Shown here piece by piece: positions 12,287 to 50,970 of a DNA stretch of 64,000 nucleotides. Under the pieces are notes generated by a model. It worked only from the letters and a program-made list of their open reading frames with translations, did no database searches and was not told where the DNA came from. The translations under genes and the position numbers were made by a program. Each line of letters starts with the position of its first letter. Within the stretch, counting starts at the first letter, position 1. This DNA is from Spartinivicinus marinus (lineage in GTDB: Bacteria; Pseudomonadota; Gammaproteobacteria; Pseudomonadales; Zooshikellaceae): NCBI RefSeq assembly GCF_026309355.1, contig NZ_JAPJZK010000001.1, positions 6,282,501 through 6,346,500 on the forward strand. Reading direction: 5' to 3'.

Positions 12287-12346
12287 TTTCATCTACTCTA
12301 ATTACATAATTCAGGGTAATACCCCTACGATATTTAGGAGTAATCC

Positions 12347-13684: not shown

Positions 13685-13723
13685 TGACACTACTTTAAAG
13701 CCACTCCTCTTCACTCTAGTACT

Positions 13724-13750: not shown

Positions 13751-13794
13751 ACACGAAGACCTGCTTTAACCAGTAAACAGAAAATAACTAAAAA

Positions 13795-13844
13795 GGCCAT
13801 TACCAGCTATCATGATCAATTTTCCATGACGGCTGGTAATGGCC
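13795..13844. terminator. bidirectional terminator between astB and the coiled-coil gene
   Basis: Perfect 13-bp stem GGCCATTACCAGC / GCTGGTAATGGCC around a 24-nt loop, flanked by AAAA on one side and TCTTT on the other. It lies between two convergent genes and could end both transcripts. Confidence 0.7.
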
Positions 13845-13889
13845 TCTTTAGTAACCCTTTATGGCTGAATAACGGTCAGCTTACCGACT

Positions 13890-29201: not shown

Positions 29202-29210
29202 AGCTTCACT

Positions 29211-30674
29211 TTACGAAGTCTCTTTAGTAAAAATCGGTTCTGGTAACCAACGCCGTTTATATACAATTACTTCATCTTGACTTTTACGATAGAAATAACT
29301 GGTTAAAATGGTTTCATAATCGTTTAATCGCACAGTAAATTGGGCAATGAAGTATTTGCTGTTTAAACTGATTAAACTCTTTTCTTTTAAATCCTTAATT
29401 TTATAACCATCTACCCCACCACAAGAAACTAACTCTGTGTCTATTGCTTGAATATTTGGGTACTGATCTTTTTTCACTCTTTTTTCAAGAAATTTTTCCA
29501 AATGAGATTGATCTAACGATTTACCTTTCATTTGACATACAGCTTCGATAAGTTCTTTTGAGGCTGTAAAAATATTAATTGGCGTTTGGTTATCACTTTC
29601 TTTGAGAGGCTCAGGTAAAACAACCAAGTTTTCTGCTAACGGCAAGTAATAGGATTGACCTGACTTTTCTCTAATGTATCTTACTAGTTGCAACTCAGAA
29701 ACGTGCTGTAATGGTTGGTTGGCTACCCGGTAAGGTGTTTTCAAACCTAAATATTCTAAATCTTCTGAGCCATCAGTATTTTTTTTGTTTATCCACTTTG
29801 TAATTTCTTTCAATAAATCTTGAGGAATTTTTTGAGAAAGTTGTTGTTCAATAACATTTCGATAGCTAGTAAAAATAGCTTCAATATCCTTATTAGTTAC
29901 CTCTTTATCTTTATTTTGATCATTCTGACCTCCATTCTCATTATTGTTATTTTGTCTATCAATTCCTTCTTCACCTGTTTCTTTATTATTTGAACTATTA
30001 CGTTGGTTGTTTCTATTTCGTATAACTGTTTTTTCTACATACAAATTATTAATATTGAAATACCCTTGAGCATCCTTGATTTCCATCAAAATACCATCTT
30101 CACACTCTATCGGGCCTTTATCTTTTTTCTCGTTATCTTCTTTTTCTTTACGCTTTTGTTTTTCATCTTCCAATTTAGGCGTCGCAATACCACTGTCATT
30201 GACTTTTAAACAACGAGGTTGCGCCCAAATTTCACCTAAATAGTCTATTTCTTTGCCATCTTCTTTATCGCTTTTTAAATCTTCAGCCAACAAAATTTTT
30301 ACATATTCTTCAGTACCTAACGCATATTGGCGGAGCATAGCCGAATGCACATGATGGGTAGTGGCTTGAATAGAAAAATCTAACTGACGAATAATCGCCG
30401 CCCCAATAATAGCCACTAACGCAAATACCAATAAGACTGTAATTAAAGCAACGCCTTGTTGTTTTTGGGGCAATGATGAAGGTTTTTTACTCCTCTTCGA
30501 GGCTGTCGCAAAAGCTTGTGGATATGGGATAGCAGGATGTTCTGAAGCTGCTGTCTGGAACAGCTTTAGCTCTGAAGGCCAAGGATGGCCTTTTAGAGCG
30601 GCGGAAGAATAGCCTGTTATACCATATCGGACACCAGGCTTATTTTCTGCTTTTTTCACTAATATCCACTTCAT
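29211..30674 (-). CDS. gspK: type II secretion minor pseudopilin GspK with an abnormally long leader
   Basis: 487 aa. GspK caps the pseudopilus tip. The prepilin hydrophobic segment GVALITVLLVFALVAII begins at G74, so the leader is 74 residues instead of the usual short one. Codons about 5-59 are supplied by a dispersed repeat (30499-30660) reading VRYGITGYSSAAL, as in repeat copy A. A Lys/Glu- and Asn-rich insert lies at about 155-255. The ATG at 30674 overlaps the gspJ stop (GTGATGA). A TTG near codon 69 could restore a normal leader if used. Export function of this form is uncertain. Confidence 0.88.
   Translation of the reverse strand: MKWILVKKAENKPGVRYGITGYSSAALKGHPWPSELKLFQTAASEHPAIPYPQAFATASKRSKKPSSLPQKQQGVALITVLLVFALVAIIGAAIIRQLDFSIQATTHHVHSAMLRQYALGTEEYVKILLAEDLKSDKEDGKEIDYLGEIWAQPRCLKVNDSGIATPKLEDEKQKRKEKEDNEKKDKGPIECEDGILMEIKDAQGYFNINNLYVEKTVIRNRNNQRNSSNNKETGEEGIDRQNNNNENGGQNDQNKDKEVTNKDIEAIFTSYRNVIEQQLSQKIPQDLLKEITKWINKKNTDGSEDLEYLGLKTPYRVANQPLQHVSELQLVRYIREKSGQSYYLPLAENLVVLPEPLKESDNQTPINIFTASKELIEAVCQMKGKSLDQSHLEKFLEKRVKKDQYPNIQAIDTELVSCGGVDGYKIKDLKEKSLISLNSKYFIAQFTVRLNDYETILTSYFYRKSQDEVIVYKRRWLPEPIFTKETS
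30499..30660 (-). mobile_element. dispersed repeat copy B, in frame inside gspK
   Basis: About 162 bp (54 codons). The plus-strand left end is GAGGCTGTCGCAAAAG, the terminal motif shared with 63110. It contains the 40-bp block matching copy A with one mismatch (30595-30634). The right end is degenerate, without the full terminal repeat. The reading frame stays open through the element in the gspK direction, so the gene is extended rather than broken. Confidence 0.7.
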
Positions 30675-31396
30675 CACACTTTACCTACCGCTACTTCAAT
30701 TAACACCCGTAGCTCACCAAATAGGGTATGTTCAAAGGTGACTTCTATTGCTTGAGGGAGAGCGCGGTTGTTGGCACTTCCCTGATTAGGCGATGGTGCA
30801 TAATCCTTACACTCTTTCCAGTCATCATCAATATTGGTATTTGTACCACTAGAGCCGGATGTTTTTTCCTTCCTTTCTAAAAACCGCCATTTTAACGACT
30901 TAATGCCTGCTAATAATTTCTGCTCATATAGTTTTGGCTCGGGCGCTTTATCCAATACCCGCCAATAATCCCGCTCTAAAATAAACAAATCATCATTACC
31001 CTGCTCTTCCGCTTCCTCATCAGGAACCATCCGGTACTGCACCCGCTGTAACTCACTTCGTTCTTCATTTAACGGGTTATCCCAAGCATGATGGGTAAAT
31101 ACAAAAGTCTGTTCAAACTCATCACAGGACCAGGTATCTTCGTTACCACCCAGTTCATCACGCACACTGCGCGCTACCATATTGCCAATATCCCGCTGCA
31201 ACATAAAAGTCGCCCGCTGCAAAGCAATCACTTTTTCACTTCGTTCAAATACAGCCGTTTGGGTATTTAGTACCGAACTAAATAACTGATAAGTAGCCAA
31301 CCCTAATAACGAAAAAATCGCAACAGCAATCACCACTTCCAATAAAGTGAAACCTGACTGAGGATCATGCATAGGAACAGTAGCGGTTTTTTTCAT
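30674..31396 (-). CDS. gspJ: type II secretion minor pseudopilin GspJ
   Basis: 240 aa. The prepilin motif QSGFTLLEVVIAVAIFSLLG is near residues 13-32, with Glu at +5 of the mature protein. Downstream RATFMLQRDIGNMVARSVRD is typical of GspJ. It forms the pseudopilus tip with GspI and GspK. Its ATG overlaps the gspI stop (ATGA), and its stop overlaps the gspK start, so translation is coupled. Confidence 0.93.
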   Translation of the reverse strand: MKKTATVPMHDPQSGFTLLEVVIAVAIFSLLGLATYQLFSSVLNTQTAVFERSEKVIALQRATFMLQRDIGNMVARSVRDELGGNEDTWSCDEFEQTFVFTHHAWDNPLNEERSELQRVQYRMVPDEEAEEQGNDDLFILERDYWRVLDKAPEPKLYEQKLLAGIKSLKWRFLERKEKTSGSSGTNTNIDDDWKECKDYAPSPNQGSANNRALPQAIEVTFEHTLFGELRVLIEVAVGKV

Positions 31397-31806
31397 TTTA
31401 ACTTCACCAAATACCCCTGCAGTTCCGCTAATAAATGGGGCTTGCCATCGTGGTAATCCAGTTTCCGTTCTACTGATACTACGATTTTACGCATTCGTTT
31501 TTCGTCACCCGCTTGAGACACATTATGTTTGACTTCCCACTTGCGTCCCGCTAGTACCACTTCCTCGGTTTTCTCACCAACCGCAGGCCAATCAGGCTCC
31601 AGCTTTAATTCCACCAGATAGTTTTCAGCAATTAAATTGGCTAAGGTTTTTTCTTCCAAATAAGCCGTTTTTTGAATGGCGCCGCCCCCTGCCACCAATA
31701 ACATAGATGCTGCAATAGCAAATACAGCAACAGCTACCACTACTTCTAATAAAGTAAAACCTTGCTGATTACTCTTCTGATAGAATGTCAAAACCTGATA
31801 CTCCAT
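31393..31806 (-). CDS. gspI: type II secretion minor pseudopilin GspI
   Basis: 137 aa, the usual GspI size. The prepilin motif QQGFTLLEVVVAVAVFAIAA is near residues 14-33, followed by the conserved LANLIAENYLVELKL. It overlaps the gspH 3' end by 38 bp. It nucleates the tip complex with GspJ and GspK. Confidence 0.93.
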   Translation of the reverse strand: MEYQVLTFYQKSNQQGFTLLEVVVAVAVFAIAASMLLVAGGGAIQKTAYLEEKTLANLIAENYLVELKLEPDWPAVGEKTEEVVLAGRKWEVKHNVSQAGDEKRMRKIVVSVERKLDYHDGKPHLLAELQGYLVKLK

Positions 31807-32428
31807 CAGTTGTTAAATAATATTGGGTTTTCTCTATACCTGTATCACTGACAATGGTGAGCTTAAATGGGGTCACTTCATAGCTGGATAAAAAGGCGAT
31901 ATCCGGTACTGGCCCAAGCTCTTTTTTAATAATCTGATTATCTTTCAGCCGCTTGCGCTGTTTTGCTAACAAATCACCTATAGGCGAGTCTTTAGAATCG
32001 ATCATTAAATTTTGAAAGGTTAAGCCTCCTGCCAGTTTAATCGGCTTCCAGGGAATATCCTTATCCTTACCAGATTCTGCTTCCTGCCATTTTCGTTTAG
32101 AGCGATCCCAGCTTAAAAAGCTTAATCGATCGTCCTTTAATGTAATCCCATAGGACTGGTTCTTATACACAGCTGTCGTTTGCATTTGCTCAAACAATAA
32201 TGCCAACTCAGACATCTGCTGTCTTATTTCCCGTTCACGGCCACCATCACCCAAACTTAATACTGCAACTGACGCCAACACCCCAATAATTACCACTACC
32301 ACTAATACTTCGATCAGGGTAAAGCCGCTCTGATTTAAATAAGGCTGGCGGTTCAAATAAGACTGGTTGTTCAAACGAAGCTTTTGGTGGTTAACATCAG
32401 ACTGTCGGGGATGAAGAGCTTGTTGCAT
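31769..32428 (-). CDS. gspH: type II secretion minor pseudopilin GspH with repeat-expanded leader
   Basis: 219 aa. The prepilin motif SGFTLIEVLVVVVIIGVLAS begins at residue 34, with cleavage after G35 and E40 at +5. The leader contains tandem hexapeptides LNNQSY-LNRQPY-LNQSGF encoded by 18-bp DNA repeats that run into the cleavage site. The mature part has REIRQQMSELALLFEQMQ, typical of GspH. It starts 9 bp after gspF, where gspG would be expected. AGGG precedes the ATG. Confidence 0.88.
   Translation of the reverse strand: MQQALHPRQSDVNHQKLRLNNQSYLNRQPYLNQSGFTLIEVLVVVVIIGVLASVAVLSLGDGGREREIRQQMSELALLFEQMQTTAVYKNQSYGITLKDDRLSFLSWDRSKRKWQEAESGKDKDIPWKPIKLAGGLTFQNLMIDSKDSPIGDLLAKQRKRLKDNQIIKKELGPVPDIAFLSSYEVTPFKLTIVSDTGIEKTQYYLTTDGVSGFDILSEE
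32333..32376 (-). repeat. 18-bp tandem repeats encoding the GspH leader
   Basis: Imperfect 18-bp units (TTYAAATAAGRCTGGYKG on the plus strand) repeat about two and a half times and encode LNxQxY hexapeptides in the GspH leader. Unit number could change by slippage without changing frame. Confidence 0.65.
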
Positions 32429-32437
32429 AATCCAGCC

Positions 32438-33661
32438 CTACATCACTAGCTGGTTTAAGTTAAGAATAGGCAACAATACAGCCAATACGATAACCAATAC
32501 GACAGCACCCATAAATAACAACATAAAAGGTTCAAATAAACCAACTAGCATGGTCACAAAACCTTCTAATTCCTGCTCCTGGTTTTCTGCTGCACGGGCC
32601 AGCATTTCATCCAACTCACCACTGGATTCACCACTGGCTACCATATGTACCACCATTGGTGCAAAAATCCCGGTTTGTTCTAGCGCAGCTCGTAAGCTGG
32701 CACCTTCACTGACTACTTGTGCTGTATTGCTTACCTTGGCTTTTAATACTTCATTACTGACTACTTCCACAGCAATTCGTAAGCCATCCACTAATGGCAC
32801 ACCACTTTTTGATAAAATACTTAAGGTACTGATAAAACGAGCCGTTTCGGTATTTTTGGTTAAATTACCCATTAATGGCAGCATTAAGTTAAAACGGTGA
32901 ACCTTATAGCGAAAACCATCAAATTTCATCCCTTGCTTAACACCTACTACCAAGATAATGACTGACAATATAATAATATGCCAGGAGGCTTTTACCCCAT
33001 CACTGGCTGCAATTATCACTTGGGTTAGCATAGGTAATTCTTGATTGGAATTAATAAAGACTTTAACTATATCGGGCACCACATAACCCAATAAAAATCC
33101 CACAATTAATAACGAGGCCGTTAATAATATAATGGGATACATTAACGCCATTTTAATTTTTTGGCGGGACTTATGGCGGGCTTCGGTATAATCAGCTAAG
33201 CGGGTTAGTACTAAATTTAAGTGTCCAGCATGTTCACCCGCCGAAACGGTAGCGCGATATAATTTAGGAAAGACATTCGGGTATTCAGCTAAACTGTCAG
33301 CCAAAGTATAACCTTCTAATACTTTGGCTCTTACTGACATTACCATCGATTTGATTTTATTCTTGCCTGACTGCTCCCCCACTGCTCGCAAACACTCTTC
33401 CAGGGGCATGCCAGCTTGAATTAAGGTAGCTAACTGTCGGGTAAATAAAGCCAGTTCATGAACTGATATACGGTGGCTACGTTGTACAGAAAAGCCACCG
33501 CCACTGCCTGCTTGGCTTTTACCTTTAGCGGGTGTTACTTGCATCGGGGCCAGTTGCTTATCACGCAACAACTGTCGGACTTGTTTAATACTGTCCCCTT
33601 CAATCACCCCTTTTTGTTCTTTACCCGCTTGGGTTAAGGCAATATATTCAAATGCAGCCAT
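32438..33661 (-). CDS. gspF: type II secretion inner-membrane platform protein GspF
   Basis: 407 aa with the standard two T2SSF domains and three membrane spans (about 170-195, 225-245, 375-400). Seen are ELALFTRQLATLIQAGMPLEE, LYRATVSAGEHAGHLNLVL and the matching second-domain MVHMVASGESSGELDEML. The protein couples GspE to pilus assembly. The next gene should be gspG, but gspH follows directly. Confidence 0.95.
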   Translation of the reverse strand: MAAFEYIALTQAGKEQKGVIEGDSIKQVRQLLRDKQLAPMQVTPAKGKSQAGSGGGFSVQRSHRISVHELALFTRQLATLIQAGMPLEECLRAVGEQSGKNKIKSMVMSVRAKVLEGYTLADSLAEYPNVFPKLYRATVSAGEHAGHLNLVLTRLADYTEARHKSRQKIKMALMYPIILLTASLLIVGFLLGYVVPDIVKVFINSNQELPMLTQVIIAASDGVKASWHIIILSVIILVVGVKQGMKFDGFRYKVHRFNLMLPLMGNLTKNTETARFISTLSILSKSGVPLVDGLRIAVEVVSNEVLKAKVSNTAQVVSEGASLRAALEQTGIFAPMVVHMVASGESSGELDEMLARAAENQEQELEGFVTMLVGLFEPFMLLFMGAVVLVIVLAVLLPILNLNQLVM

Positions 33662-33687
33662 AATCCAACTACCTGCTAGCTCGTTTG

Positions 33688-35172
33688 CTAATCTTCACGG
33701 GTGACTCTCAATACTTCTTCCAAGGTGGTTACCCCTTCCATCACTTTACGGCAACCATCTTCACGAATACCTGGGCCTTTAGTACGCGCATAGGCATTCA
33801 TTTGTTGTTCAGAAGCCCCTTCGTGGATGTAGGTTCTAAGTGGCTCATCTACGGCAATGACTTCATAGATACCTGTCCTGCCTTTATAACCACTGTGATT
33901 GCAGTTTTCACAGCCTTTCGGGCGATATAAGGTGGGAGGCGTACTTGTACTCACCCCCAATAATTCACAGTCTTTAGCACTGGCTTCAAAGGGCTGTTTA
34001 CAGTCATCACATAACACCCTCACCAATCGCTGGGCAATCACCCCCAATAAACTGGAAGCGAGCAAAAAGGGCTCCATTCCCATATCTTTTAACCGAGTGA
34101 CTACGCCAATTGCCGTATTAGTGTGAATAGTAGACAGCACCAGGTGTCCAGTTAAACTGGCTTGTACTGCAATTTGGGCGGTTTCGGTATCACGAATTTC
34201 CCCAACCATCACTACATCTGGGTCTTGGCGGAGAATCGCGCGCAGCCCACGAGCAAAAGTCATATCGGTTTTGGTATTGACCTGAGTTTGACCAATCCCT
34301 TCCAAATTATATTCAATCGGGTCTTCAACAGTTAAAATAGTGCGGGTTTCTGAATTTAAGGTGGTTAGGCCTGCGTATAAACTGGTCGTTTTACCAGAGC
34401 CAGTAGGTCCTGAGACGAGAATAATACCATGGGGTTTCAGTAATAAATCATGCAACAATTCATGATCACGGCCAGACATACCTAGGTGCTTTAAGTCCAG
34501 TCGACCTGCCCGCTTATCTAGCAAACGCATGACCACCCGTTCGCCATTATTGGAAGGTAAGGTAGACACCCGAATATCCACTTCCCGGCCAGCCACGCGT
34601 AAGGCAATTCGACCATCCTGGGGAACCCGCTTTTCAGCAATATCCATCCGTGCCATAACTTTGATCCGCGATACCAACAAAGCCGCCAACTGTCGTTTAG
34701 GCTCGATGACTTTACGCATCACCCCATCGACACGAAACCGAACCACCAAACGTTTTTCAAAGGTTTCGATATGAATATCCGACGCCTGTTCTCGTATGGC
34801 TTCAGACAGCACCGCATTAATCAAGCGAATTATGGGCGCATCATCTTCCTGCTCCATTAAATCTTCGGTTTCAGGAATCGCATCAGCCAGGCTGGCCAAA
34901 TCCATATCGTCGCCTAAATCTTCCATGGCCTCCATGGTTTCAGAGGTTTTGCCCTGATACAGCTCTCCCATTTTTTGCTCAAAGGCATCTGAAGATAATA
35001 CTTCAACTGCGGTAGGCTGTCCCACATAACGGACAATTTCTGAAAACACCACCGGCGTAACCGGTGAAGTATAAAATAGCGTTACCCCTTGTTCCGAAGG
35101 AGCAATTAATACCCCATAACGCTTAGCGAAACTATAGGGCAAATTGTTAACAACTGGCTGAGCCAAATCCAT
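33688..35172 (-). CDS. gspE: type II secretion ATPase GspE
   Basis: 494 aa cytoplasmic hexameric ATPase. Walker A is GPTGSGKTTSLYAGL, followed by an Asp box, the Walker B region PDVVMVGEIRDTETA and a His box (GHLVLSTIHTN). A zinc-binding four-cysteine element CDDC...CENC lies near residues 398-435. The N-terminal GspL-binding domain is about 1-90, then an acidic linker. It is 59 bp after gspD. Confidence 0.96.
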   Translation of the reverse strand: MDLAQPVVNNLPYSFAKRYGVLIAPSEQGVTLFYTSPVTPVVFSEIVRYVGQPTAVEVLSSDAFEQKMGELYQGKTSETMEAMEDLGDDMDLASLADAIPETEDLMEQEDDAPIIRLINAVLSEAIREQASDIHIETFEKRLVVRFRVDGVMRKVIEPKRQLAALLVSRIKVMARMDIAEKRVPQDGRIALRVAGREVDIRVSTLPSNNGERVVMRLLDKRAGRLDLKHLGMSGRDHELLHDLLLKPHGIILVSGPTGSGKTTSLYAGLTTLNSETRTILTVEDPIEYNLEGIGQTQVNTKTDMTFARGLRAILRQDPDVVMVGEIRDTETAQIAVQASLTGHLVLSTIHTNTAIGVVTRLKDMGMEPFLLASSLLGVIAQRLVRVLCDDCKQPFEASAKDCELLGVSTSTPPTLYRPKGCENCNHSGYKGRTGIYEVIAVDEPLRTYIHEGASEQQMNAYARTKGPGIREDGCRKVMEGVTTLEEVLRVTRED

Positions 35173-35231
35173 AAATAATAATCTAACGGCTTATTAAACG
35201 CTTAATTGAAATTTTAAATACTGCTTTTGTA

Positions 35232-37136
35232 TTACAATTTGGGTAGTGTTGGTACTTCAACATCTTTTCCTAACTCTTTAAGTAATTTTCTATATGCCTG
35301 TTGTTGAAGCTGAACTTTATAATATTCTTTTTTCGATACTTTATCTGCCACTTCACGGGTACGGATAATCGTTGGTCTTAAAAAAACCATTAAATTAGTT
35401 TTAACCTTTTTTTCCTTTTCTGCTCGAAATAACCAACCAATAACAGGTAAATCGCCAAAAAAAGGCACTTTGTCTTCAGCAATTTGCAAATTATCCTTTA
35501 CTAGCCCACCCAGCACCAGCATAGAACCATCATCTAGCAAAACTGATGTTTGTATTTCCCTTTTACTGTAAGTCACTTGGTCATTACCAGTTGTAGAGGG
35601 TATTACATCAGATATCTCTTGTTCAATTTTTAGAGTTACTGATTCACTTTGATTAACCAAAGGAGTAACTTTAAGGGTAATACCAATATCTTTTCGCTCA
35701 AAATTTTGATAAGGGTTACTGGCAGGAGTTGAAGAGCTAGTGGTTGTTGAAGTTAAAATGCCTATATTCTCACCTACATGAATTTTGGCTTCTTCATTAT
35801 CCAATGTTACTAGAGAAGGAGTAGATAAAATATTAGCTGTAGAGTCTGTATCGAAGGCTTGTACTAAAGCACGTAATGAGCCATTACGGTAAAATCCTAA
35901 ACTAAGCCCACTTCCTATACTAATTACTCCTTTATCATTTTTAGAGGGATATCCATCAAATCCAGAAAGCTTACTATCACTCAACGAATGACGCGTTCCA
36001 GCAAACAACCCATCCCCACCAATAGAACCACCAGATGTTCCCCACTGAACTCCTATTTCATCTAAGCGTGTATCATTTAATTCAACTATCACCGCTTCAA
36101 CTAAAACCTGAGCCCGACGAATATCCAACTTTCTCACCGTTTCTTTAACGGTTTTCATAATTTTTGGTGGCCCAGAAATAACCAGTGCATTGGTCGCCTC
36201 ATTGGCTTCAATGGCTACTTCCCGATCCGCAACTTTGGCATCTTTAGCGCCTTTTTGGATATTACCTGCCAGTTTTTGTAGGGTTTCGGCTAAGTCTTTA
36301 GCTTTTTGATAATGCAAATAAATCACTTCAGCACCACCATCTGAACGCTCAGATTTATCCAGGCGGCGAACTAAACTAGCCAACACTTTTCGTTTAACGG
36401 GGTCGCCTGCCATTAAAATACTATTACTACGCTCATCCGCAACAAAACTAATCCCACGGTTTAACATGGTGCCGGATTTAATGGGTGGCACTAACCCTTT
36501 TAATACATTAACCAAATCTTTGGCACTGGCATGTTCTAGTGGAATAAACTCAACATCAATTCCCCCCGCTAAATCGACTTCTTGAATAATCTTTACTAAT
36601 TGATCAATATTTCTAGCCCGGTCGGAGACGATTAAGGCATTACTGTCTGGGTGTGCAACCAGATGACCGGTTTGTGGTACTAATGGCCTCAAAGTACTGA
36701 CTAATTTCTGTGCAGAAATATTTTTGGGTTTAATTACCTGTACCACCATCTCATCATTTGGCTCAGGCTTTTGTTTCCCCATAACAGGTACACCACTATG
36801 GCGAGCCGTAGCATCAGGTATGATTTTAGTGACTTGTCCTGTGTTTAATGCAGTAAATCCATGCACCTGTAACACAGATAAAAATACCTGGTAGGCTTCT
36901 TCAGGGGATAACACCTCTTGAGAAATAACACTGACTCTTCCTTTTACCCGTGGGTCAATAACAAAATTTTTCCCTGTTCGCTCTGCAATCCACTGGATAA
37001 AACTGCGGATATCACCATCCTGCATGTTTATTTTCATTTCAGTGGAAGGATTGGGCGGATTTTGGGCTGACCATCCTACTGGCACGGCTGTCACGATTAA
37101 CAGCCATACGGCACAACTACCGATATAACGTTTCAT
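35232..37136 (-). CDS. gspD: type II secretion outer-membrane secretin GspD
   Basis: 634 aa with a signal peptide (about 1-23). N0 (MQDGDIRSFIQWIAERTGKN) is followed by repeated N1-N3 domains (LVPQTGHLVAHPDSNALIVS and others). The C-terminal secretin barrel carries the signature VPFFGDLPVIGWLFRAE and VFLRPTIIRTRE. A Ser/Thr/Asn-rich segment (STTTSSSTPASNPYQN) near residue 460 is the gate region. It is 6 bp after gspC. Confidence 0.96.
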   Translation of the reverse strand: MKRYIGSCAVWLLIVTAVPVGWSAQNPPNPSTEMKINMQDGDIRSFIQWIAERTGKNFVIDPRVKGRVSVISQEVLSPEEAYQVFLSVLQVHGFTALNTGQVTKIIPDATARHSGVPVMGKQKPEPNDEMVVQVIKPKNISAQKLVSTLRPLVPQTGHLVAHPDSNALIVSDRARNIDQLVKIIQEVDLAGGIDVEFIPLEHASAKDLVNVLKGLVPPIKSGTMLNRGISFVADERSNSILMAGDPVKRKVLASLVRRLDKSERSDGGAEVIYLHYQKAKDLAETLQKLAGNIQKGAKDAKVADREVAIEANEATNALVISGPPKIMKTVKETVRKLDIRRAQVLVEAVIVELNDTRLDEIGVQWGTSGGSIGGDGLFAGTRHSLSDSKLSGFDGYPSKNDKGVISIGSGLSLGFYRNGSLRALVQAFDTDSTANILSTPSLVTLDNEEAKIHVGENIGILTSTTTSSSTPASNPYQNFERKDIGITLKVTPLVNQSESVTLKIEQEISDVIPSTTGNDQVTYSKREIQTSVLLDDGSMLVLGGLVKDNLQIAEDKVPFFGDLPVIGWLFRAEKEKKVKTNLMVFLRPTIIRTREVADKVSKKEYYKVQLQQQAYRKLLKELGKDVEVPTLPKL

Positions 37137-37142
37137 ACAACT

Positions 37143-37766
37143 TTAATTTCGCTGATTAAACCTTGAACGCAGTGCTTGTAATTTTTTTCTAATCTCTGCT
37201 TCTCGAGGATTAACCCCCATAGCAGAAAAGCGACTGGGTGAATGAGTATCATAGTGCTGAGGCGAAGACACCCCATCACTCTTATTTCGAGCAATTGATA
37301 AAACCTCAAGTTCTCCATTTCTCAATAAGGTAATGGAGGTAGGCTTGATTCCTTTAACGACTACATTATTCTGGATTTTATCACCTACCCGATAATACTT
37401 GGCAGGTTGGCTGTTTAATGCAACGGATGCTGCAGCGCTACTTGGATCAGAGGAAAAAAATACAGCCTGTAGCGACAGGTTGAGAGTGGTTTCAGGGATA
37501 TCTTCTACAACAGGTTCAGACTCTTTAATTTCCACCACTTTGCCAAACAGCTGTTCAGCAAGCTGACTTACCTGTCCTGTAGACAGGGCAGAATCCGCGT
37601 CTACTCCGCTTCCTTGTGTACTTTTGACAGTCATGCTTGTTGTTGACCCGACCGCGAGGGTTTGATTGACTTGACGGTATTGGGTGTAGGCATAACCCGA
37701 TACTCCTGCCAAAATCACAACCGCCAGGCTGGTGTCCAACAAGCGTCGTCTATTTATCTGGGCCAA
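37143..37766 (-). CDS. gspC: type II secretion protein GspC (short, no PDZ domain)
   Basis: 207 aa. It has an N-terminal membrane span (LAVVILAGVSGYAYTQY, about 13-30), a linker and a homology-region domain (LSLQAVFFSSDPSSAAASVA, YYRVGDKIQ, ITLLRNGELEVLSI). It ends with a basic helical tail. GspC links GspD to the inner-membrane platform. There is no PDZ domain, so it is a short-type GspC. The start appears to be TTG; no in-frame ATG lies before residue 46. It is first gene of the operon. Confidence 0.88.
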   Translation of the reverse strand: MAQINRRRLLDTSLAVVILAGVSGYAYTQYRQVNQTLAVGSTTSMTVKSTQGSGVDADSALSTGQVSQLAEQLFGKVVEIKESEPVVEDIPETTLNLSLQAVFFSSDPSSAAASVALNSQPAKYYRVGDKIQNNVVVKGIKPTSITLLRNGELEVLSIARNKSDGVSSPQHYDTHSPSRFSAMGVNPREAEIRKKLQALRSRFNQRN

Positions 37767-42087: not shown

Positions 42088-42528
42088 CTATCCTAGTTCT
42101 TCCTTATAAATCAAATACACTTTTTTGCCATATGCAGAGGCGGTACTTTCTAAGCTTTCTCCATCATTATTCTCTATACTTTGATCTGCCCCCAAATCAA
42201 TTAACTTCTTAGTATGAGAAAAATTTATTTCTTTGCCGCTTTGAATGGCTCCGTCGATATCTAAATCAAATGCGAGTAACAAGGGTGTACACCCTTGTTT
42301 ATCTTGTGCATTAACATCGGCACCATTTTCAATAAGCCACTCAACCACTCTGTCTAAACCATTCAGCGCAGCAATGTGAATAAGCTGCCAACCATTACGA
42401 CTAGTTCGCTTAGTTATACTGCCACCAAGATTAAAATACTCTTTAATTTGAGAAAGCCAGGCCTCTTCAACCTTGGAATACTCACCGTCATGATTAAATA
42501 GTGAATCCACAAGTTCATCAACACTCAT
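42088..42528 (-). CDS. ankyrin-repeat protein, probable immunity protein of the RHS toxin
   Basis: 146 aa, cytoplasmic, no signal peptide. Ankyrin repeats are visible: NGWQLIHIAALNGLDRVVEW with LIENGADVNAQD, then GCTPLLLAFDLD..., then HTKKLIDLGADQSIENNDG. It starts 33 bp after the RHS toxin stop on the same strand, with CGGGG upstream of the ATG. Small genes directly after polymorphic-toxin tips usually encode immunity proteins, and ankyrin proteins have been proposed in that role. The immunity function is inference from position. Confidence 0.8.
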   Translation of the reverse strand: MSVDELVDSLFNHDGEYSKVEEAWLSQIKEYFNLGGSITKRTSRNGWQLIHIAALNGLDRVVEWLIENGADVNAQDKQGCTPLLLAFDLDIDGAIQSGKEINFSHTKKLIDLGADQSIENNDGESLESTASAYGKKVYLIYKEELG

Positions 42529-42561: not shown

Positions 42562-45500
42562 TCAACGCTTTTTGTGAGTTGTTGATGACAAAACAGAACT
42601 TTTCATCACAAAAAGCTTAGGGTGCCTTAACTTAAAGGCTGTACCAACCCTCGTACAAGAGCCACAAAAATTCAACTCCGAAACAACCCTTACCAAACCA
42701 GTAGTAGACGTAGTAAAACGGCTTGTCATAGTAGAATACAGTTTTACCTCAGCATCAAACGACCTATTATGACCATCCCACCCAGTTTGCAAGGAAACGG
42801 GTATTCCTTCAGTACCTGGCAGGGTTCTACCACTTACGCCAATAATGCTATCAACTCCTGAAGTGGTAATATAATCTGCAAATGCAACATTACGTTGGCC
42901 GGCCCTTAATCCCAAAGTTCGTCGAATGAAGCTTATTCTTTCACTATCGGACTTAAATATTCTACAAATCTTATGCTCTTTACCTGGCTTCTCACAATTA
43001 AATTTCTTTAAGAATTTTTTTCCTAGTATTTTGAATAATTTAATTCCACCTAAACTAGCAAGTGCAAACATTCCAGCTTGAGCTGCTGTGATACTTTCAC
43101 CATTTGACACCACCCCAAACAGGTCATAGGCAGAGCTTGCAATATTTAGAGTGGTAAGAATGCCCGCCACATTAAAACCGACGCCAAATGATGGTAAACC
43201 AAAGTTCCCAGTTGGGTCGGTGTAATTAACGGGGTCTACATTGGCATAAAGGTATTTATGCAGCGTAACTGGATCATGATTAACCCCCATCCAGGTATCC
43301 ATCTGGGTAAAGCGGGCAGCTTTTTGGTTGTAATAACGCGCCCTGAGATAGTACTGATCCAACCCTGAATCAAACTGCTCACCAGTAAATAGGTAGTTGT
43401 TCTTGGTATTGCCCATTGAGTTCAGCAATACCCCGAAGGCTTCATAGTTATAGGTATCAGTAGTAGCACCTGCGGCGTCCGTTAAGGCTCGGGTGCTACC
43501 GAGTCCGTCGTAATGGTAGTAGCTTGAAGCACCATTACGGTCCTGACTGATTAGGTCATCGCCATAGGTGTAGTTGACTTGGTTTGCCCCATCACTCTCG
43601 ACCAGCACCTGAGCATAATCGCGGTTTTCATCGACGATAAACTGAGTGGTGACACCATTTTCCGTTTTACCAGTACGAATACCGTTGTGGTTGTAACGAT
43701 AGCTTGTGGTTTTCCCTTCCTTTTCGGCTGATGCCAGTTTGTTTTTGGCATCGTAGGTATAAGTGGTGACCTTGTTATCTAAGGTTTCAGTCAGGGTACT
43801 GCCATTATTGTCGTAGGTATAACGGCTACCCCCTTGTTGGGTCAGCCTATCGTTGGAGTCATAGGTATAACGTGTCGTGACGCCATCAGCCACGCTTTGG
43901 GTGCGGTTGCCCACTTTATCGTATTGATAGCTGGCACTGTAGTTACCATTGACGGCATCGGTAATGGTTTCGCTGGTTAACCGATACAGCTGGTCGTAGC
44001 TATAGGCGGTGGTTCTACCATTACTCTCATCAATTTGGGTCCGCCGGCCGGTTGGGTGCAGGGTATAGCTATAGGACTGTATTAACCCACCGCCCTGGCT
44101 AAAGGTTTCCAGCTTGGTTAGGCGATTTAAACTGTCATAGCTATAGACCTGACTGGTACCGTTGGGGTAGCTAACACTGGTGCGGTTACCCACGGCATCA
44201 TAGCCATAAGTGGTTGTGCCCTTAGCATCGGTGACACTTTGCAGACGATTCAGTTTGTCATAGTTGTAGTCAGTGGTAAGCACCTGACCACTAGCCTGAG
44301 CCACTTGCACCTGAGTACGGTTACCCACCGGATCATATTGATAGTGGATAACAGAGCCATCGGGCTTGGTTTCACTGGTCAATCGATCCTGCTGATCATA
44401 GTTGTAGGTTGTGGTTTGTAACGGGCCATTCACTGGCGTTACCTGCACTTGAGTGCGGTTACCCATGGCATCGTATTGAAAAGCTTCTACCCGGCCATCG
44501 GCATATTCACTTTGGATCAAGCGGTTCATACTGTCGTATTGATGGCGAGTAACCTGACCATTAAAGTCAGTCTGTTCAGTCAGGTTGCCATTGCCATCGT
44601 AACTAAAGCCTTCCGTTTGCCCCATTGGTAAGGTACGGGATGTGACTCGGCCCAACGCATCATAGGCCCAGCGAGTGGTGCGACCTTCCGCATCGGTTTG
44701 AGTGAGCTTATTACCCGCCGAGTCATAGCTAAATGTGGTCGTGCCACCTAACGCATCAGTTACTTTGGTTAACCGACCTAACTTGTCGTACTCGTAGGTG
44801 GTTTTCACACTGGCCTGATCGGCCTGGCTGGTACGACGAGATAAGGCATCTAAGGTTGAGGTTTGCTTGGAGCCATTGTGATAGCGCGTTTCTATACGCT
44901 GATCCAACTTATTGTACACATAGCTCCTGCGGTGGCCTTTGGCATCCACCTCTGCAATCAGATTGCCTTCTGCATCGTATTCAAAGCGGTGCTCATTACC
45001 GGCTGCATCACGGCTTAAAGTACGGCGCCCAGCTGCATCGTACTCATACTCGGTACGATTACCATTGGCATCAATCTCTGCAGTCACTCGGCCGATAGCA
45101 TCATAGACAGTTTGGGTGCTAGAACCATCAGGATAAGTAACTTTGGTTTGCCGGTTCAGCGCATCATAACTGTATTGCGTGGTACGACCCGCTTTGTCCG
45201 TTTCACTCAGCAGGTTACCTTCCCTGTCATAGGTCTTGGTCGCTACTGATCCATCGGAGTAACGGGTGCTAATTAGACGACCATAGGCGTCATAAGCCAT
45301 TTCAGTCCGCTGACCTAAGGCATCGACAGTCCCCACCTCACGGCCGGCTAAGTCATAAACAGTCGTGGTCACATTGCCCAGCGGATCGGTGGTTTTAATC
45401 ACCCGGTTGCGCGCATCGTAAACATAACGTGTGGTTTCGGCTGCACCATTACGGGTACGCGTCTCGGTTAGCACATTGCCATTAGCATCGTAGCTATAGC

Positions 45501-48500
45501 GAGTGACATGACCTTCAGCATCGGTTTCGGTGAGCTTGTTGCCATCCTTGTCATAGGTGTATTGTGTTGCATTACCCAACACATCAACGGTTCGGGTGAC
45601 AAGTCCTTGGGCATTAATCGTATTACCTGCCACCTTGCCGTTAGGGTCTGTCACCGTTAATAAATTACCTAAACTGTCATAGGTATTGTGGAAGGTATTA
45701 CCCCGAGCATCGGTAATCTGGGTTTCCTGACCGCGAGTGTTATAGCTATAAGTAGTGGTATTGCCTAAGGCATCCACTTGAGTTAGCTGATCATTTTTAT
45801 CGTTATAGGTAGCAATTTGGGTAAAGCCCAAAGCATCCACCTGGGTTAATTGATTACCCCGTGCGTCATAGGTATAAGAGGTGGTATTGCCTAACGCATC
45901 AATACGGGTGAGGACATTACCTTGCTCATCATAAAACAGTTGGGTGATATTGCCGTTACGATCAGTGACCAGTGAAAAACGGCCTGCTAAATCATGATTA
46001 AACTCGGTACGGTTACCATCACTGTCTTCCTGAGCTATCAACTTCCCTTTATCGTCATAGATATTTTTTACCAGCTTGCGGCCCAGCGGATCTTTAATAT
46101 CCAACAAACCGTGCTGCTGATTATAGGTATAAGTGGTGGTGGCATTAAGTTGATCAGTGGCCTTCACTAAGTCCTGCTGAGCACTATACGAGTATTGTAG
46201 GGTATTACCCTTAGGGTCAGTAATGCTGGTAATCTTGCCATCCCCATCACGATTAAACAGCACACTTTTACCGCTAGAGTGAACAATACCCGCATCGCTA
46301 TACGTCAGGGTGTGTCCCGTAGGAACGGTGACTTTAGTGATACCAAAATTCTGATCCAGCTCATAAACATAGCCGGCACGGGTCGTTAATTGATAACGAT
46401 TAGGGTTGATAGGGTTAGTGAAAGTACCTGTTTCTACTAGGTTACCGTTCACTAAGCGCGCCGTGTTGTCCCCCATAATTTTCAGTGTCGACTGGGTATC
46501 ACCCACAGGCTCAAGGGATAAAGTGACATCCAGTTGTGCACTGAGGTTATTACACTGCGGCGTGGCTTTAACTTCAAACACTTCCTGGTCACCATCAGGT
46601 AAAGTCACAATCACCTGGGGTGCGCCATTAGGCTCTACACAATAACGGGTCAAGACATTGAATGGCCCATATTTATAGCTGTTAAGGGACCAATATTTGC
46701 CAGGCACCCGGGTTTCTTCAATTTTTACGTCCTGATAACCCACACTCCAGCCATAACCAAAATCCAGTTTTTCATGGCGGCGACGACTGTCGTAAGTACG
46801 AGTGACTCGAATCGGAATACCAGCCACTGGAATAGTTAAATCTTCTACGGTGAAAGAGAAATTACCTACTTTCATATCGCCGTTTACACGATAAGTCACC
46901 TGCTGAGACTGCTCATTACCACTGACATCGCGAGCAATTAACGCAATATTATATAAACCATTGACTAACTGGGTAGGATCAAATTGACCTAATACCCCAT
47001 CCACTACAGGTGTCGTACTTTTAGTTATTTCTGTGAATTGATTTTTACCAGCAGGGGAAATTAATAACCGATAATCGACAAAATTATCATCCGTCGCCGT
47101 ACCCACTATTTCAACAGGCGCTAAAATTTCACTATCAGTTGCTGGTGTTTTAATTTCTACTGTGGGCTTAGTTGCATCATTCGGATCACGAACACTAAAC
47201 TGACCAGTTGTAGATACCAATTGTTTGGTATCTTTAGCAGTGGCAGCTAAAGAATAATTACCAACTGTGTCGCCCGTAACAATGGCACGACCATTATTAT
47301 CTAAAGCAACCGCATTTCCATTCACTGTTAGCGTTAGGTTAATAGCACCTACCCCACCAGTGGTTATCACAGAAACTGTCGTGGTTTGACCTTTATCAAT
47401 GACAGCCGGAGTCGCTACTACAGATACTGTTAAGGGCAGCGCTTGTTTCGCGACGTTGATGGTAAAGCTTTGCTCAATATAAGCTTGGGCATCGGCGGCT
47501 CTTACCACAACATTATGAACACCCGCTTGGCCAGCGGTTGGTGTCCAATTAATTGCGCCAGATGCACGGTCAATTTGCATTCCAGCCGGTGCTGTGGTCA
47601 AGCTATAAGAAATCGCATCACCATCTGCATCGCTAGCAATCACTGCATATTGATAAGCGGTATCAACCGCGCCATTGGCCAGCGGTGTAGAGGTAATGGT
47701 GGGTGGGGTATTTTGAGCACCAGCCGTGACATGGATGGTAAAGGTCTGCGTGGCAATCCCCCCATTACCGTCTTCAGCCCGGACGACGACTTCATTAGCG
47801 CCTTGCTGGTTATTGGCAGGGGTCCAGCTAATCAGGCCACTATTGGCATTGATCGTCATGCCCTTGGGGGCTGCCTCCAGCTGATACGTCAATGAGTCTC
47901 CATCAGCATCCGTCGCTGTGACGGTATAACGATAAGCTTGTCCAGCATTTGCAGCGGTACCGGGGGAACTGGTAATAACCGGTGACTTATTGACCACCGC
48001 ATTGACGGTCACCGTAAATTGTTGACTGGTAACGCCACCTTTACTGTCAGTCACGCGGACACTGACACTGTTGACACCAATCTGCTGTTGAGTGGGCGTC
48101 CAGTTGATCAAGCCTGAAGTCGGATTAATAGTCATGCCAGTGGGTGCAACTTCCAAGCGGTAAGTCAGCGTGTCACCATTCGCATCCGTGGCTGTGACAG
48201 CATACGAATAAGCCTGTGCCACTTGGGCTTGAGTTGCTGGCGAGGAAGTGATCGTAGGTGGGTTGTTATTATTGGCCCCACCGCCAGCGGCAATCGTGAA
48301 TGTCTGCTTGGTCACCCCGCCACGCAGGTCAGTGACTTCGATACTCACCGTATAGTCACCCCGTTGTGTAACCGCAGGCACCCAGGTAATCAGCCCATTG
48401 TCCTCATTGATGAGCATGGCCGCCGGTGCTTCGAGTAAGCGATAACGCAGCTTATCGTTATCCACATCCGTAGCTTCAACATCATAGGTATAGGTTGTTA

Positions 48501-50970
48501 ATAAAGGAGCCGATCGTCCTGGCGTACTTGTAATCACTGGTGGTGTATTTATTTCACCTGGGGCTAGCACCGCAAGGGTATACTGCTGTTGATCAATGCC
48601 CGCTTTATTATCAGTGACCTCAACAATAATCTCATGAAATTTCCCATGAGCATTTGGCACCCAGCTGATCACACCGGACTGCTCATCAATGGTCATTCCA
48701 TTGGGGGCATTTTTTAACGAGAATTTTAACGGATCATTATCAGGGTCTGTTGCAGTTACCAGGTACTGATAGTTTTCACCTGAACGAGCAACAATATTAG
48801 GCGTTGAAGTAATTATTGGTGAGCGTTGAACAGTCACGGTAAAACTTTGCTCAATATTGGCGCCCTGAAGATCAATTGCGCGAATTTTTACCGGATAGGA
48901 TTTATGCAGGTTGCTGTTATCTGGTGTCCATACCAATAACCCAGTGCCAACATAAAATGACATACCCGCTGGGCCTTCCACTAGCTCGTAACGCACCTGG
49001 TCACCAACATCGCTATCCGTCGCAATAACATTGTATGAAAATGATTTATCTAATACGGCATATTGTGCTGCTTTACTAGTAAATTTAGGCACCTCATTAA
49101 TATCATTTAATTGGATAGCAAAGCGCTGGGTATCCTTTGCACCTGCCTTATCTTCAGCGTCTATCCACACCAGAGGTAAACGGATAGTGTTGTTGTTTTC
49201 GTTGCACTCTAAAAGATCCTGACTTTCTTCGTCAATAACCGCTTCCAATAAAGTACGATCTGAATTCAGTACAGGCCCTTTAAATGTTAGCTGAGCGATC
49301 TCACCAGCTGCCAAAGGAGGTACTTTAGCTGTACCAATTGGCAGCTTAAAAGATGCTCCTCCCACTTGATGAAAAAACGCTGACTTTAGATTTACACTTG
49401 TTTCCTTTTTGCTAGGCCCACTACCGCGATTTAACACAGAAACACGATAAGTGTCTTCTGTTTTACCCGGTATCAGCTCAACAGAGTCAACGATTAAATC
49501 GGCTGATTTTTCCCTGGGTAATAAGCGTGCTCGGTAAAATACTTCACTTTGAGAATGCACATAAAAACCAAAGCGTCCTTTTAAATAGGTATCATCTGGT
49601 ATAGAGAACGCTTGAAGTAACCGATTGCCTTGAGCCACATAAATATGGGTTAAACCGGGTCTAACATCTAAAATTATTTTGTAATCAACATGGTATTCCC
49701 AACGAAGTTTTGGGTTTGCAAACAACTTGACATCCGTTGGGTGCTCTCCTTCAAATCGAGGTTCTGGCGTAGCAATTTTTGTCACATCCATTCCCACACC
49801 ATTTCCATGATCCCAACGGAATCGATAATAGTGGCTTTTATCTTGGAAGCCCCAAACAAAACCAAAATGATCGTTATCACCACCCTCATTACGCAAACTA
49901 ATTTCCATCACTCCATCAGATAGCTCAATATCAGATAGCAAAATGGAAGGTGCTCCATTTCCATAGGTAATTGCTACTGTCCCATTATCTTCAAACCCCC
50001 AGCTTTGTGACCCACCATGGCTGCCTTTATCTCTTAATACTGTCCATTTTGATGCATCAATAAAGGGCTCATTGGTTGATTGGGGTACTGAACAAAAAGG
50101 ATTGGTTGCTTTTGAGTAAACAGGCAAATGATCGGAACCACTCCAACGAAACTCACCTGTTTTTGAATTTAAAGCTACATTATCAAGAAAACCTCTATTT
50201 TTATAGTTAATCACATCACCTTGATCAGGATCGGTTGCATCAACATCGTAAATAAAAGGCTCGTTTTCATTGGTTGATAAGGGTGGTGTGCTGGTAATAA
50301 TAGGTGGGTGATTAACTGAAGGATCTTTTACTTCAACTACGAAGTTCTGCTCAGTATATTTTGCAGCTGCATCGTAGGCACGCACAATAACACAATGTTT
50401 ACCCACTTGATTTTTACCCGGTAGCCAGTTAATTACACCGGTTGTTAGGTTAATTGTCATGCCATCCGGAAACTGGCTTAGCATGTAGCTGACTTGATCA
50501 CCAGCATTTGGATCTGTGGCATTAACATCGTAGACATAAGCCGTATTGACTGCGGCTTGGGCTGGAGCAGTTGTTTGAATAACGGGGCTTTTATTACGAC
50601 GATTGGGTCTTGAGCGAGTGGTTTTAGCAAAAGCAATGGTTGATCGGCTAGACTCAACCTGTTGTGTATTTATATCTGCGACTTGATAATAAAAAATCTG
50701 TTCCAGAGGTAATCTATCATCCAAATAAGTCGAATAGCTACTACTGGTCGTTGCTATTGCTGTAAACGGGCCAGAGGGAGAGCTAGCACGATAAATACGG
50801 TATTGATTTGCACCGGTATGTTGCCAAGTTAATTGTATTTTTTGTCGTTTGGCACGCGCTTGCAATGTACTTTTACAAGCAGAAGCTGATGGAGATAAAG
50901 TTGATGCACTTACAGTACTAACCTGAAAACCACAAGTCATTGCAACAGCTAAAGTAATAAGAAAACGCAT
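42562..50970 (-). CDS. giant secreted RHS/YD-repeat polymorphic toxin with deaminase-like C-terminus
   Basis: 2802 aa. In order: signal peptide (1-22); FN3-like (35-115); cadherin-like/He_PIG repeats (130-275); thrombospondin C-terminal-like domain (290-485); CARDB-like domain (487-605, ending ECNENNNTIRLPL); six further He_PIG repeats (600-1175); and two Ig-like domains to 1370. The RHS entry (GIPIRVTRTYDSRRR, LDFGYGWSVGYQ) precedes many YD repeats (about 1530-2470). The RHS core (YDGLGSTRALTD, YYLRARYYNQ, PVNYTDPTG) lies near 2485-2590, followed by a hydrophobic stretch. The tip from about 2655 has D2739-A-E2741, SE2765 and C2769-G-S-C2772, as in toxin deaminases of the BURPS668_1122 type. 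No VgrG or PAAR is nearby; the Sec signal suggests another export route. Confidence 0.92.
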   Translation of the reverse strand: MRFLITLAVAMTCGFQVSTVSASTLSPSASACKSTLQARAKRQKIQLTWQHTGANQYRIYRASSPSGPFTAIATTSSSYSTYLDDRLPLEQIFYYQVADINTQQVESSRSTIAFAKTTRSRPNRRNKSPVIQTTAPAQAAVNTAYVYDVNATDPNAGDQVSYMLSQFPDGMTINLTTGVINWLPGKNQVGKHCVIVRAYDAAAKYTEQNFVVEVKDPSVNHPPIITSTPPLSTNENEPFIYDVDATDPDQGDVINYKNRGFLDNVALNSKTGEFRWSGSDHLPVYSKATNPFCSVPQSTNEPFIDASKWTVLRDKGSHGGSQSWGFEDNGTVAITYGNGAPSILLSDIELSDGVMEISLRNEGGDNDHFGFVWGFQDKSHYYRFRWDHGNGVGMDVTKIATPEPRFEGEHPTDVKLFANPKLRWEYHVDYKIILDVRPGLTHIYVAQGNRLLQAFSIPDDTYLKGRFGFYVHSQSEVFYRARLLPREKSADLIVDSVELIPGKTEDTYRVSVLNRGSGPSKKETSVNLKSAFFHQVGGASFKLPIGTAKVPPLAAGEIAQLTFKGPVLNSDRTLLEAVIDEESQDLLECNENNNTIRLPLVWIDAEDKAGAKDTQRFAIQLNDINEVPKFTSKAAQYAVLDKSFSYNVIATDSDVGDQVRYELVEGPAGMSFYVGTGLLVWTPDNSNLHKSYPVKIRAIDLQGANIEQSFTVTVQRSPIITSTPNIVARSGENYQYLVTATDPDNDPLKFSLKNAPNGMTIDEQSGVISWVPNAHGKFHEIIVEVTDNKAGIDQQQYTLAVLAPGEINTPPVITSTPGRSAPLLTTYTYDVEATDVDNDKLRYRLLEAPAAMLINEDNGLITWVPAVTQRGDYTVSIEVTDLRGGVTKQTFTIAAGGGANNNNPPTITSSPATQAQVAQAYSYAVTATDANGDTLTYRLEVAPTGMTINPTSGLINWTPTQQQIGVNSVSVRVTDSKGGVTSQQFTVTVNAVVNKSPVITSSPGTAANAGQAYRYTVTATDADGDSLTYQLEAAPKGMTINANSGLISWTPANNQQGANEVVVRAEDGNGGIATQTFTIHVTAGAQNTPPTITSTPLANGAVDTAYQYAVIASDADGDAISYSLTTAPAGMQIDRASGAINWTPTAGQAGVHNVVVRAADAQAYIEQSFTINVAKQALPLTVSVVATPAVIDKGQTTTVSVITTGGVGAINLTLTVNGNAVALDNNGRAIVTGDTVGNYSLAATAKDTKQLVSTTGQFSVRDPNDATKPTVEIKTPATDSEILAPVEIVGTATDDNFVDYRLLISPAGKNQFTEITKSTTPVVDGVLGQFDPTQLVNGLYNIALIARDVSGNEQSQQVTYRVNGDMKVGNFSFTVEDLTIPVAGIPIRVTRTYDSRRRHEKLDFGYGWSVGYQDVKIEETRVPGKYWSLNSYKYGPFNVLTRYCVEPNGAPQVIVTLPDGDQEVFEVKATPQCNNLSAQLDVTLSLEPVGDTQSTLKIMGDNTARLVNGNLVETGTFTNPINPNRYQLTTRAGYVYELDQNFGITKVTVPTGHTLTYSDAGIVHSSGKSVLFNRDGDGKITSITDPKGNTLQYSYSAQQDLVKATDQLNATTTYTYNQQHGLLDIKDPLGRKLVKNIYDDKGKLIAQEDSDGNRTEFNHDLAGRFSLVTDRNGNITQLFYDEQGNVLTRIDALGNTTSYTYDARGNQLTQVDALGFTQIATYNDKNDQLTQVDALGNTTTYSYNTRGQETQITDARGNTFHNTYDSLGNLLTVTDPNGKVAGNTINAQGLVTRTVDVLGNATQYTYDKDGNKLTETDAEGHVTRYSYDANGNVLTETRTRNGAAETTRYVYDARNRVIKTTDPLGNVTTTVYDLAGREVGTVDALGQRTEMAYDAYGRLISTRYSDGSVATKTYDREGNLLSETDKAGRTTQYSYDALNRQTKVTYPDGSSTQTVYDAIGRVTAEIDANGNRTEYEYDAAGRRTLSRDAAGNEHRFEYDAEGNLIAEVDAKGHRRSYVYNKLDQRIETRYHNGSKQTSTLDALSRRTSQADQASVKTTYEYDKLGRLTKVTDALGGTTTFSYDSAGNKLTQTDAEGRTTRWAYDALGRVTSRTLPMGQTEGFSYDGNGNLTEQTDFNGQVTRHQYDSMNRLIQSEYADGRVEAFQYDAMGNRTQVQVTPVNGPLQTTTYNYDQQDRLTSETKPDGSVIHYQYDPVGNRTQVQVAQASGQVLTTDYNYDKLNRLQSVTDAKGTTTYGYDAVGNRTSVSYPNGTSQVYSYDSLNRLTKLETFSQGGGLIQSYSYTLHPTGRRTQIDESNGRTTAYSYDQLYRLTSETITDAVNGNYSASYQYDKVGNRTQSVADGVTTRYTYDSNDRLTQQGGSRYTYDNNGSTLTETLDNKVTTYTYDAKNKLASAEKEGKTTSYRYNHNGIRTGKTENGVTTQFIVDENRDYAQVLVESDGANQVNYTYGDDLISQDRNGASSYYHYDGLGSTRALTDAAGATTDTYNYEAFGVLLNSMGNTKNNYLFTGEQFDSGLDQYYLRARYYNQKAARFTQMDTWMGVNHDPVTLHKYLYANVDPVNYTDPTGNFGLPSFGVGFNVAGILTTLNIASSAYDLFGVVSNGESITAAQAGMFALASLGGIKLFKILGKKFLKKFNCEKPGKEHKICRIFKSDSERISFIRRTLGLRAGQRNVAFADYITTSGVDSIIGVSGRTLPGTEGIPVSLQTGWDGHNRSFDAEVKLYSTMTSRFTTSTTGLVRVVSELNFCGSCTRVGTAFKLRHPKLFVMKSSVLSSTTHKKR

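Follow-up and report, generated by a model that had tools for sequence, protein, structure and literature searches.

A giant RHS protein with a deaminase-like C-terminal tip and an ankyrin-repeat neighbour in Spartinivicinus marinus

Analysis of the window, which is the whole stretch of 64,000 nucleotides considered here, revealed a giant RHS protein that retains, in its C-terminal tip, the zinc-binding and catalytic positions expected of a deaminase. In our reading, which we consider likely, the protein is a Sec-exported polymorphic toxin of the RHS class with a zinc-dependent deaminase tip, and the ankyrin-repeat protein encoded next to it provides immunity. The class, that of the RHS polymorphic toxins, is a known one, and by its sequence the tip appears to be a divergent relative of PF14424 and not a formal member of it. 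Within the searches made here, a very large Ig-RHS shell bearing a divergent tip, with an ankyrin-repeat gene beside it, was new.

Domain anatomy and proposed mechanism

The features of the locus were as follows.
42562..50970, minus strand: giant RHS polymorphic toxin (probable), 2802 aa; from the ORF and from Pfam and NCBIfam domains
50905..50970, minus strand: signal-peptide-like N-terminus, residues 1-22; from hydropathy, by inference
46891..50610, minus strand: He_PIG/cadherin-like Ig domains, TSP_C-like domain and CARDB, residues 121-1360; from Pfam
43204..46890, minus strand: DUF6531 and RHS/YD shell, with the end of the Rhs-associated core at DPTG2588, residues 1361-2589; from Pfam and NCBIfam
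42901..43203, minus strand: pre-toxin linker, residues 2590-2690; paralogue identity is lost here, and GC3 is 0.29 against 0.52 in the core
42565..42900, minus strand: deaminase-like tip, residues 2691-2802; from PF14424, hhalign and shuffles
42748..42756, minus strand: D2739-A-E2741, at the [HCD]-x-E position (zinc ligand and proton shuttle); D and E identical in 6/6 rows
42655..42666, minus strand: C2769-G-S-C2772, at the position of the two cysteine zinc ligands; C, S and C identical in 6/6 rows
42088..42528, minus strand: 146-aa ankyrin-repeat protein, candidate immunity protein; Ank_4 at E 1e-10, 33 nt downstream of the toxin
27487..37766, minus strand: type II secretion operon with matches to GspC, D, E, F, an N-methyl pseudopilin, I, J, K, L and M, a possible outer-membrane exporter connected with the toxin by position only; from Pfam

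The toxin gene was recovered in the ORF list of the window as a single uninterrupted ORF at exactly 42562-50970 on the minus strand, in agreement with the original prediction of one 2802-aa protein. Its ATG start is well fixed because the open frame holds only 2807 codons. Pfam found RHS repeats (19 stretches), He_PIG (7), Big_9, Cadherin_5, CARDB, DUF6531 and TSP_C in the protein; the He_PIG/cadherin-like, CARDB and RHS domains had all been predicted, and TSP_C had been left unnamed. The NCBIfam Rhs_assc_core model matched residues 2509-2588 with 55.9 bits (cut-off 32.5). The RHS repeats and the Rhs-associated core precede the tip, as they do in Sec-exported RHS polymorphic toxins. At the other end, a mean hydropathy of at least 1.6 over a 19-mer was reached at one place only in the whole protein, at residue 3, and signal cleavage is presumably placed after A22 by the -3/-1 rule. 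This hydrophobic N-terminus makes Sec export plausible.

In the mechanism that we propose, the signal peptide would take the chain across the inner membrane, and the outer membrane would be passed through the T2SS or by another route. The RHS shell would enclose the C-terminal tip, and the adhesive Ig-like front would reach or contact the target cell. The tip would be freed from the RHS shell by cleavage at the conserved core (DPTG2588) and would then enter the target cell. There it may bind zinc via D2739, C2769 and C2772, with E2741 acting as the proton shuttle, and deaminate a base; cytosine or adenine within nucleic acid would be the most likely substrate. Binding of the ankyrin protein to the tip would protect the producer.

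The deaminase-like tip and its relatives

In a Pfam search of the tip at E up to 1, a single family came up: PF14424, to which the BURPS668_1122 toxin deaminases belong. The profile matched the last 182 residues with an E value of 1.2e-6 and 29.1 bits and the whole protein with 2.7e-5 and 24.8 bits, and the window tip scored 28.7 bits in the genome search. The curated cut-off of 29.6 bits was narrowly missed each time, and the tip is not a formal PF14424 member because its best score, 29.1 bits, lies below it. Only profile positions 83-138 of 146 were matched, which together with the score counts against the main reading. The original prediction had described a BURPS668_1122-type deaminase tip and proposed an HMM search against PF14424; that search returned the family as the sole Pfam match but with a score under the cut-off, and what stands of the prediction is a divergent relative, borne out by profile, shuffles and conserved residues. 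No match to the tip was found in NCBIfam, PHROGs or PADLOC at E up to 0.1.

The conserved residues were found exactly where they had been predicted (D2739-A-E2741, SE2765 and C2769-x-x-C2772), in the form D2739-A-E2741, S2764-E2765 and C2769-G-S-C2772. The strict motif D.E.K-(10-45)-[ST]E...C..C occurred once in the 2802-aa protein and in none of 20000 shuffled versions of its last 182 residues (0/20000). The looser motif [HDC].E-(10-60)-C..C occurred in 115/20000 shuffles, and the residues by themselves are therefore less strong evidence than the profile. The profile evidence was obtained with PF14424-type relatives from other genomes (L003, L004, L005, L009 and L010). Four of them (L003, L004, L009 and L010) were combined into a profile without the window tip. 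It gave the tip 23.3 bits, against 11.1 for the best of 5000 shuffles, of which 4219 received a reported score; the protein minus its last 182 residues scored -0.4. When each of the six rows was left out in turn, the window tip scored 25.4 bits (best of its 1000 shuffles, 6.6), the divergent L005 19.9 and the four typical relatives 112 to 171 bits, the best shuffle overall being 12.6 (1000 each). An hhalign comparison of the tip with the profile of the four relatives gave a probability of 89 and an E value of 2.4e-6.

Nine residues were identical in all six rows, the tip and its five relatives: N2694, P2718, D2739, E2741, K2743, C2769, S2771, C2772 and F2779. The tip thus shares with PF14424 the order and spacing D-x-E-x-K ... 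C-x-S-C-x6-F, and it also lies, like its relatives, at the C-terminus of a large toxin. The [ST]-E three residues before the first cysteine was common to five of the six rows, and its glutamate (E2765 in the window protein) was absent in L005. Differences from the relatives were seen as well: the middle loop of the window tip is shorter, its first cysteine is preceded by F where the relatives have P, A or T, and the gene next door encodes an ankyrin protein in place of Imm2 or Imm3, the usual but not obligatory partners of the family. A comparison of the six-row profile with the PDB listed 15 sequences, 13 of which were zinc deaminases (APOBEC and nucleoside deaminases); no match was significant alone, and the top one was a LysR-type regulator. 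Five alignments were printed, four of them with deaminases, and in all four (4/4) the C-x-S-C columns fell on a cysteine pair. The D-x-E columns fell on H-A-E in 6l2l and 5w3v, the two deaminase alignments reaching that far. These results support the assignment of the tip as a predicted divergent deaminase toxin related to PF14424.

The tip is similar to DddA and SsdA in its likely superfamily and in its place at the C-terminus of a toxin. According to the accessible part of PMC7901873, these two enzymes deaminate cytosine in DNA and belong to the SCP1.201-like and DYW-like families, neither of which appeared when the tip was compared with Pfam at E up to 1. For a Salmonella protein of the PF14424 family, an adenosine deaminase is the candidate activity by prediction in PMC10469887; in the accessible parts of that paper and of PMC3482391, the activity of the family is predicted and not measured.

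Relatives of the tip were rare. PF14424 matches were found in 4 of the 244 genomes of the order (three of them over the cut-off; the four include the window's own) and in 0/14 control genomes. A four-row profile that included the window tip matched in 6/398 genomes of the phylum, counting the window's own and one match with internal stops. The aligned relatives were 23-28% identical to the window tip. Close relatives of the tip were found neither in plasmids, in phages or in 4 other genomes of the family, nor in the 398 phylum genomes apart from the window's own. None was found in genome contigs, whether queried by the single protein or by a two-row alignment, in contig and collection scans that rely on short patterns and can miss distant relatives. 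That no close relative was found in the collections searched also counts against the main reading. In viral contigs, neither the two-row alignment nor the four typical relatives gave a match, in a scan that finds little even for typical members. The single-protein query pointed to one viral-contig locus (L006), which was rejected: the match covered only query residues 42-90, with the motif outside it, and lay on the strand opposite a 314-aa ORF that looked methyltransferase-like by eye. Among the relatives, L005 (1459-3414, minus strand) is a long protein with a divergent PF14424-type tip.

Shell relatives, tip exchange and the ankyrin-repeat neighbour

The junction region of the protein (residues 2441-2620) had matches in all 5 genomes of the family and at 14 places in its own genome, most of them distant. 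The nearest match was a second Ig-RHS giant of the same genome (L075), a protein of 3698 aa encoded at 3327-14423 on the minus strand (C1 1646826-1657922 in its own genome), with a VWA/PKD front followed by Ig domains, TSP_C and RHS. The two giants share 53% identity over 2082 aa. Per 50-residue bin, the identity was 0.82 and 0.86 at 2451-2550, fell to 0.48 across the junction and was at most 0.22 past residue 2600, so the shell of this paralogue is conserved and its tip is replaced. A 200-aa gene lies 3 nt downstream of it. Neither the tip nor the neighbour of the paralogue is recognisably a deaminase or an ankyrin protein, because no Pfam family matched its last 258 residues or its 200-aa downstream gene at E up to 0.1. 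L078, which belongs to a different genome of the order, was 51% identical over 1820 aa and carried a different tip, with a 154-aa ORF overlapping the toxin stop by one base, and the tip of L077 matched the NucA/NucB DNase (23.9 bits; cut-off 23.8). A conserved shell with exchanged tips was seen in L075 and also in L076-L078.

Nine stretches had been fetched as candidate shell relatives, and in five of them (L075-L078 and L083) the RHS protein ended inside the stretch. A small ORF on the same strand lay directly downstream in three of these five (L075, L078 and L083) and in neither L076 nor L077. L079, L080 and L082 were dropped because they are Ig-type proteins with few YD-like motifs, and L081 runs off the end of its contig. 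The junction region also matched 89 plasmid records, by name from Streptomyces (18), Alteromonas (9), Priestia (8) and others; cyanobacteria supplied all of the ten best that were listed. Three of the cyanobacterial relatives (OSC7112_RS31375, HRE53_RS27480 and PQG02_RS31090) are annotated as putative Ig-domain proteins, share 48-53% identity with the window protein across the 180 residues of the junction region and are longer than it by their annotated coordinates. Their downstream genes are SMI1/KNR4 in one, DUF4241 followed by a Tdi1-type gene in another and a hypothetical gene in the third; taking SMI1/KNR4 and DUF4241 to be immunity-type genes, as we do, such a gene is present in two of the three. 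Exchange of the tip together with a changing neighbour gene defines the polymorphic toxins, and the window protein can therefore be placed in that class. The GC3 value was 0.32 in the tip, 0.29 in the linker and 0.52 in the RHS core. This step from core to tip fits an exchanged cassette and carries little weight, as several neighbouring genes are also near 0.3.

The ankyrin-repeat gene follows the toxin gene on the same strand after a gap of 33 nt, and from this position it is probably the immunity gene. No terminator-like or promoter-like site was reported between the two genes, and the GC3 of the ankyrin gene (0.30) is like that of the tip (0.32) rather than that of the core (0.52). In the accessible tables of PMC3482391, Imm-ank is among the immunity types of the deaminase toxins as a group, and Imm2 and Imm3 are listed for the BURPS668_1122 deaminases. 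Imm2- or Imm3-like neighbours were found beside four of the five PF14424-type relatives, two of them over the cut-off, but the neighbour of the window toxin had ankyrin repeats alone in Pfam and matched neither family. This difference counts against the main reading, as do the many other roles known for ankyrin proteins. The gene might not be an immunity gene at all, the protection coming from elsewhere or the ankyrin protein being an unrelated neighbour, which we regard as possible but rather doubtful. It would agree with such a case that the ankyrin gene had, besides itself, one match at E up to 1e-8 in the 244 genomes of the order, located inside a 666-codon frame, so that a repeated pairing of ankyrin proteins with deaminases could not be shown; the shared strand, the short gap, the GC3 value and the published Imm-ank speak for immunity. 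In L005, the sole same-strand ORF directly downstream encodes 101 aa (1137-1442) and runs antisense to an ABC-transporter-like ORF of 480 aa; a convincing immunity gene was not found there.

Export, surroundings of the toxin block and weaker alternatives

The term “T2SS” in PMC3482391 (Zhang et al. 2012) stands for the Sec route. Sec-dependent RHS toxins, deaminase tips, RHS repeats and Imm-ank each appear in the tables of that paper, the last three for the deaminase toxins as a group; in its accessible part, no single protein combining all these parts was met. The Sec/T2SS-dependent RHS toxins described there are like the window protein in their signal-like N-terminus, RHS shell, exchanged tips and small downstream gene, whereas the window protein has a very long Ig/TSP_C/CARDB front. 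WapA, which the accessible part of PMC12704120 presents as the Gram-positive form of Sec-exported RHS toxins, shares DUF6531, the RHS shell and a variable C-terminal toxin with the window protein, whose signal-peptide-like N-terminus, judged by hydropathy, would correspond to the signal peptide of WapA. Unlike WapA, the 2802-aa protein had no cell-wall-binding N-terminal domain in a Pfam scan at E up to 0.001, and it must cross an outer membrane as well, because the genome encodes T2SS and T6SS genes. We suggest, quite tentatively, that the Ig-RHS giants of this order and of cyanobacteria form an outer-membrane counterpart of WapA, exported by Sec and possibly by the T2SS; the deaminase of the window protein would then represent a subfamily of its own outside the PF14424 cut-off, with an ankyrin inhibitor instead of Imm2 or Imm3. 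The locus bears on the question of how RHS giants lacking PAAR and VgrG get out of a cell that has two membranes and arrive at their targets, and it offers for this export question a tip-swapped twin in the same genome and T2SS genes nearby.

The original prediction had left the export route open. This was fair, yet Sec-dependent RHS toxins are in print (in the part of PMC3482391 available) and the type II secretion operon, encoded on the strand of the toxin gene, ends 4.8 kb away from it; the operon had been overlooked, as had the ankyrin immunity candidate and the tip-swapped paralogue. The nearness and the common strand would fit an operon that serves as the dedicated exporter of the toxin, but we consider this unlikely. 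Other GspG and GspD-like matches exist elsewhere in the genome, and two other genomes of the genus keep the start of the operon (GspD 87% and 82% identical) and the adjacent ketosynthase-like gene, while homology stops at about 39360. Genes of the toxin block were not found in the 14-15 kb beyond the break in either of these genomes, and neither the tip nor the N-terminal 700-residue stretch had a match in them. As these relatives do not share the toxin block, its nearness to the T2SS may be chance; because they keep the operon without the block, a dedicated exporter becomes less probable. The block itself starts at about 39360, at the synteny break beside the conserved ketosynthase-like gene, where the two relatives have other genes. 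No gene of the 27487-37766 operon matched PF08334 (GspG), and the two GspG matches of the genome lie elsewhere.

It is improbable, in our view, that the tip is a decayed deaminase or a non-catalytic zinc-binding domain and the protein mainly an RHS/Ig-type adhesin or surface protein. The divergence of the tip, its score under the Pfam cut-off and the very large Ig-like front would agree with this, as would the weak N-terminal half of the domain, for which one 24-residue match to L005 was found at E 0.002. However, the expected zinc and catalytic positions are kept, K2743, S2771 and F2779 are those of the five relatives, the frame is open without stops, and the existence of a paralogue with a different tip is more in keeping with a toxin than with an adhesin.

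From the Sec signal and the absence of VgrG and PAAR, the original prediction had argued against ordinary T6SS delivery. Neither domain was found in the 2802-aa protein by Pfam, as predicted, and neither was found among the 29 window proteins scanned, but the genome does hold the sheath gene TssC, about 2.5 Mb away, and nine PAAR matches, one with an internal stop and 0/9 in the window. We think it very unlikely that, in spite of its N-terminus, the protein travels as a cargo effector of the T6SS by way of PAAR or VgrG encoded elsewhere: these genes would allow it, and for Salmonella the accessible part of PMC10469887 counts Rhs-family proteins with toxin tips among the candidate T6SS effectors, but the signal-like N-terminus and the lack of PAAR matches in the window stand against it, and the missing PAAR or VgrG domain lowers this mode of delivery further.

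Smaller genes surround the toxin. PEP-CTERM-like tails were recognised by eye in 39661-40119, 40456-41127, 41196-41918 and 51078-51821 (all on the minus strand), on both sides of the toxin gene. The ORFs 39661-40119 and 40059-40430 (minus strand) overlap in different frames and match two parts of one TSP_C domain, so this TSP_C gene looks interrupted by a frame change. The first of them resembles residues 424-479 of the toxin and the second residues 288-377.
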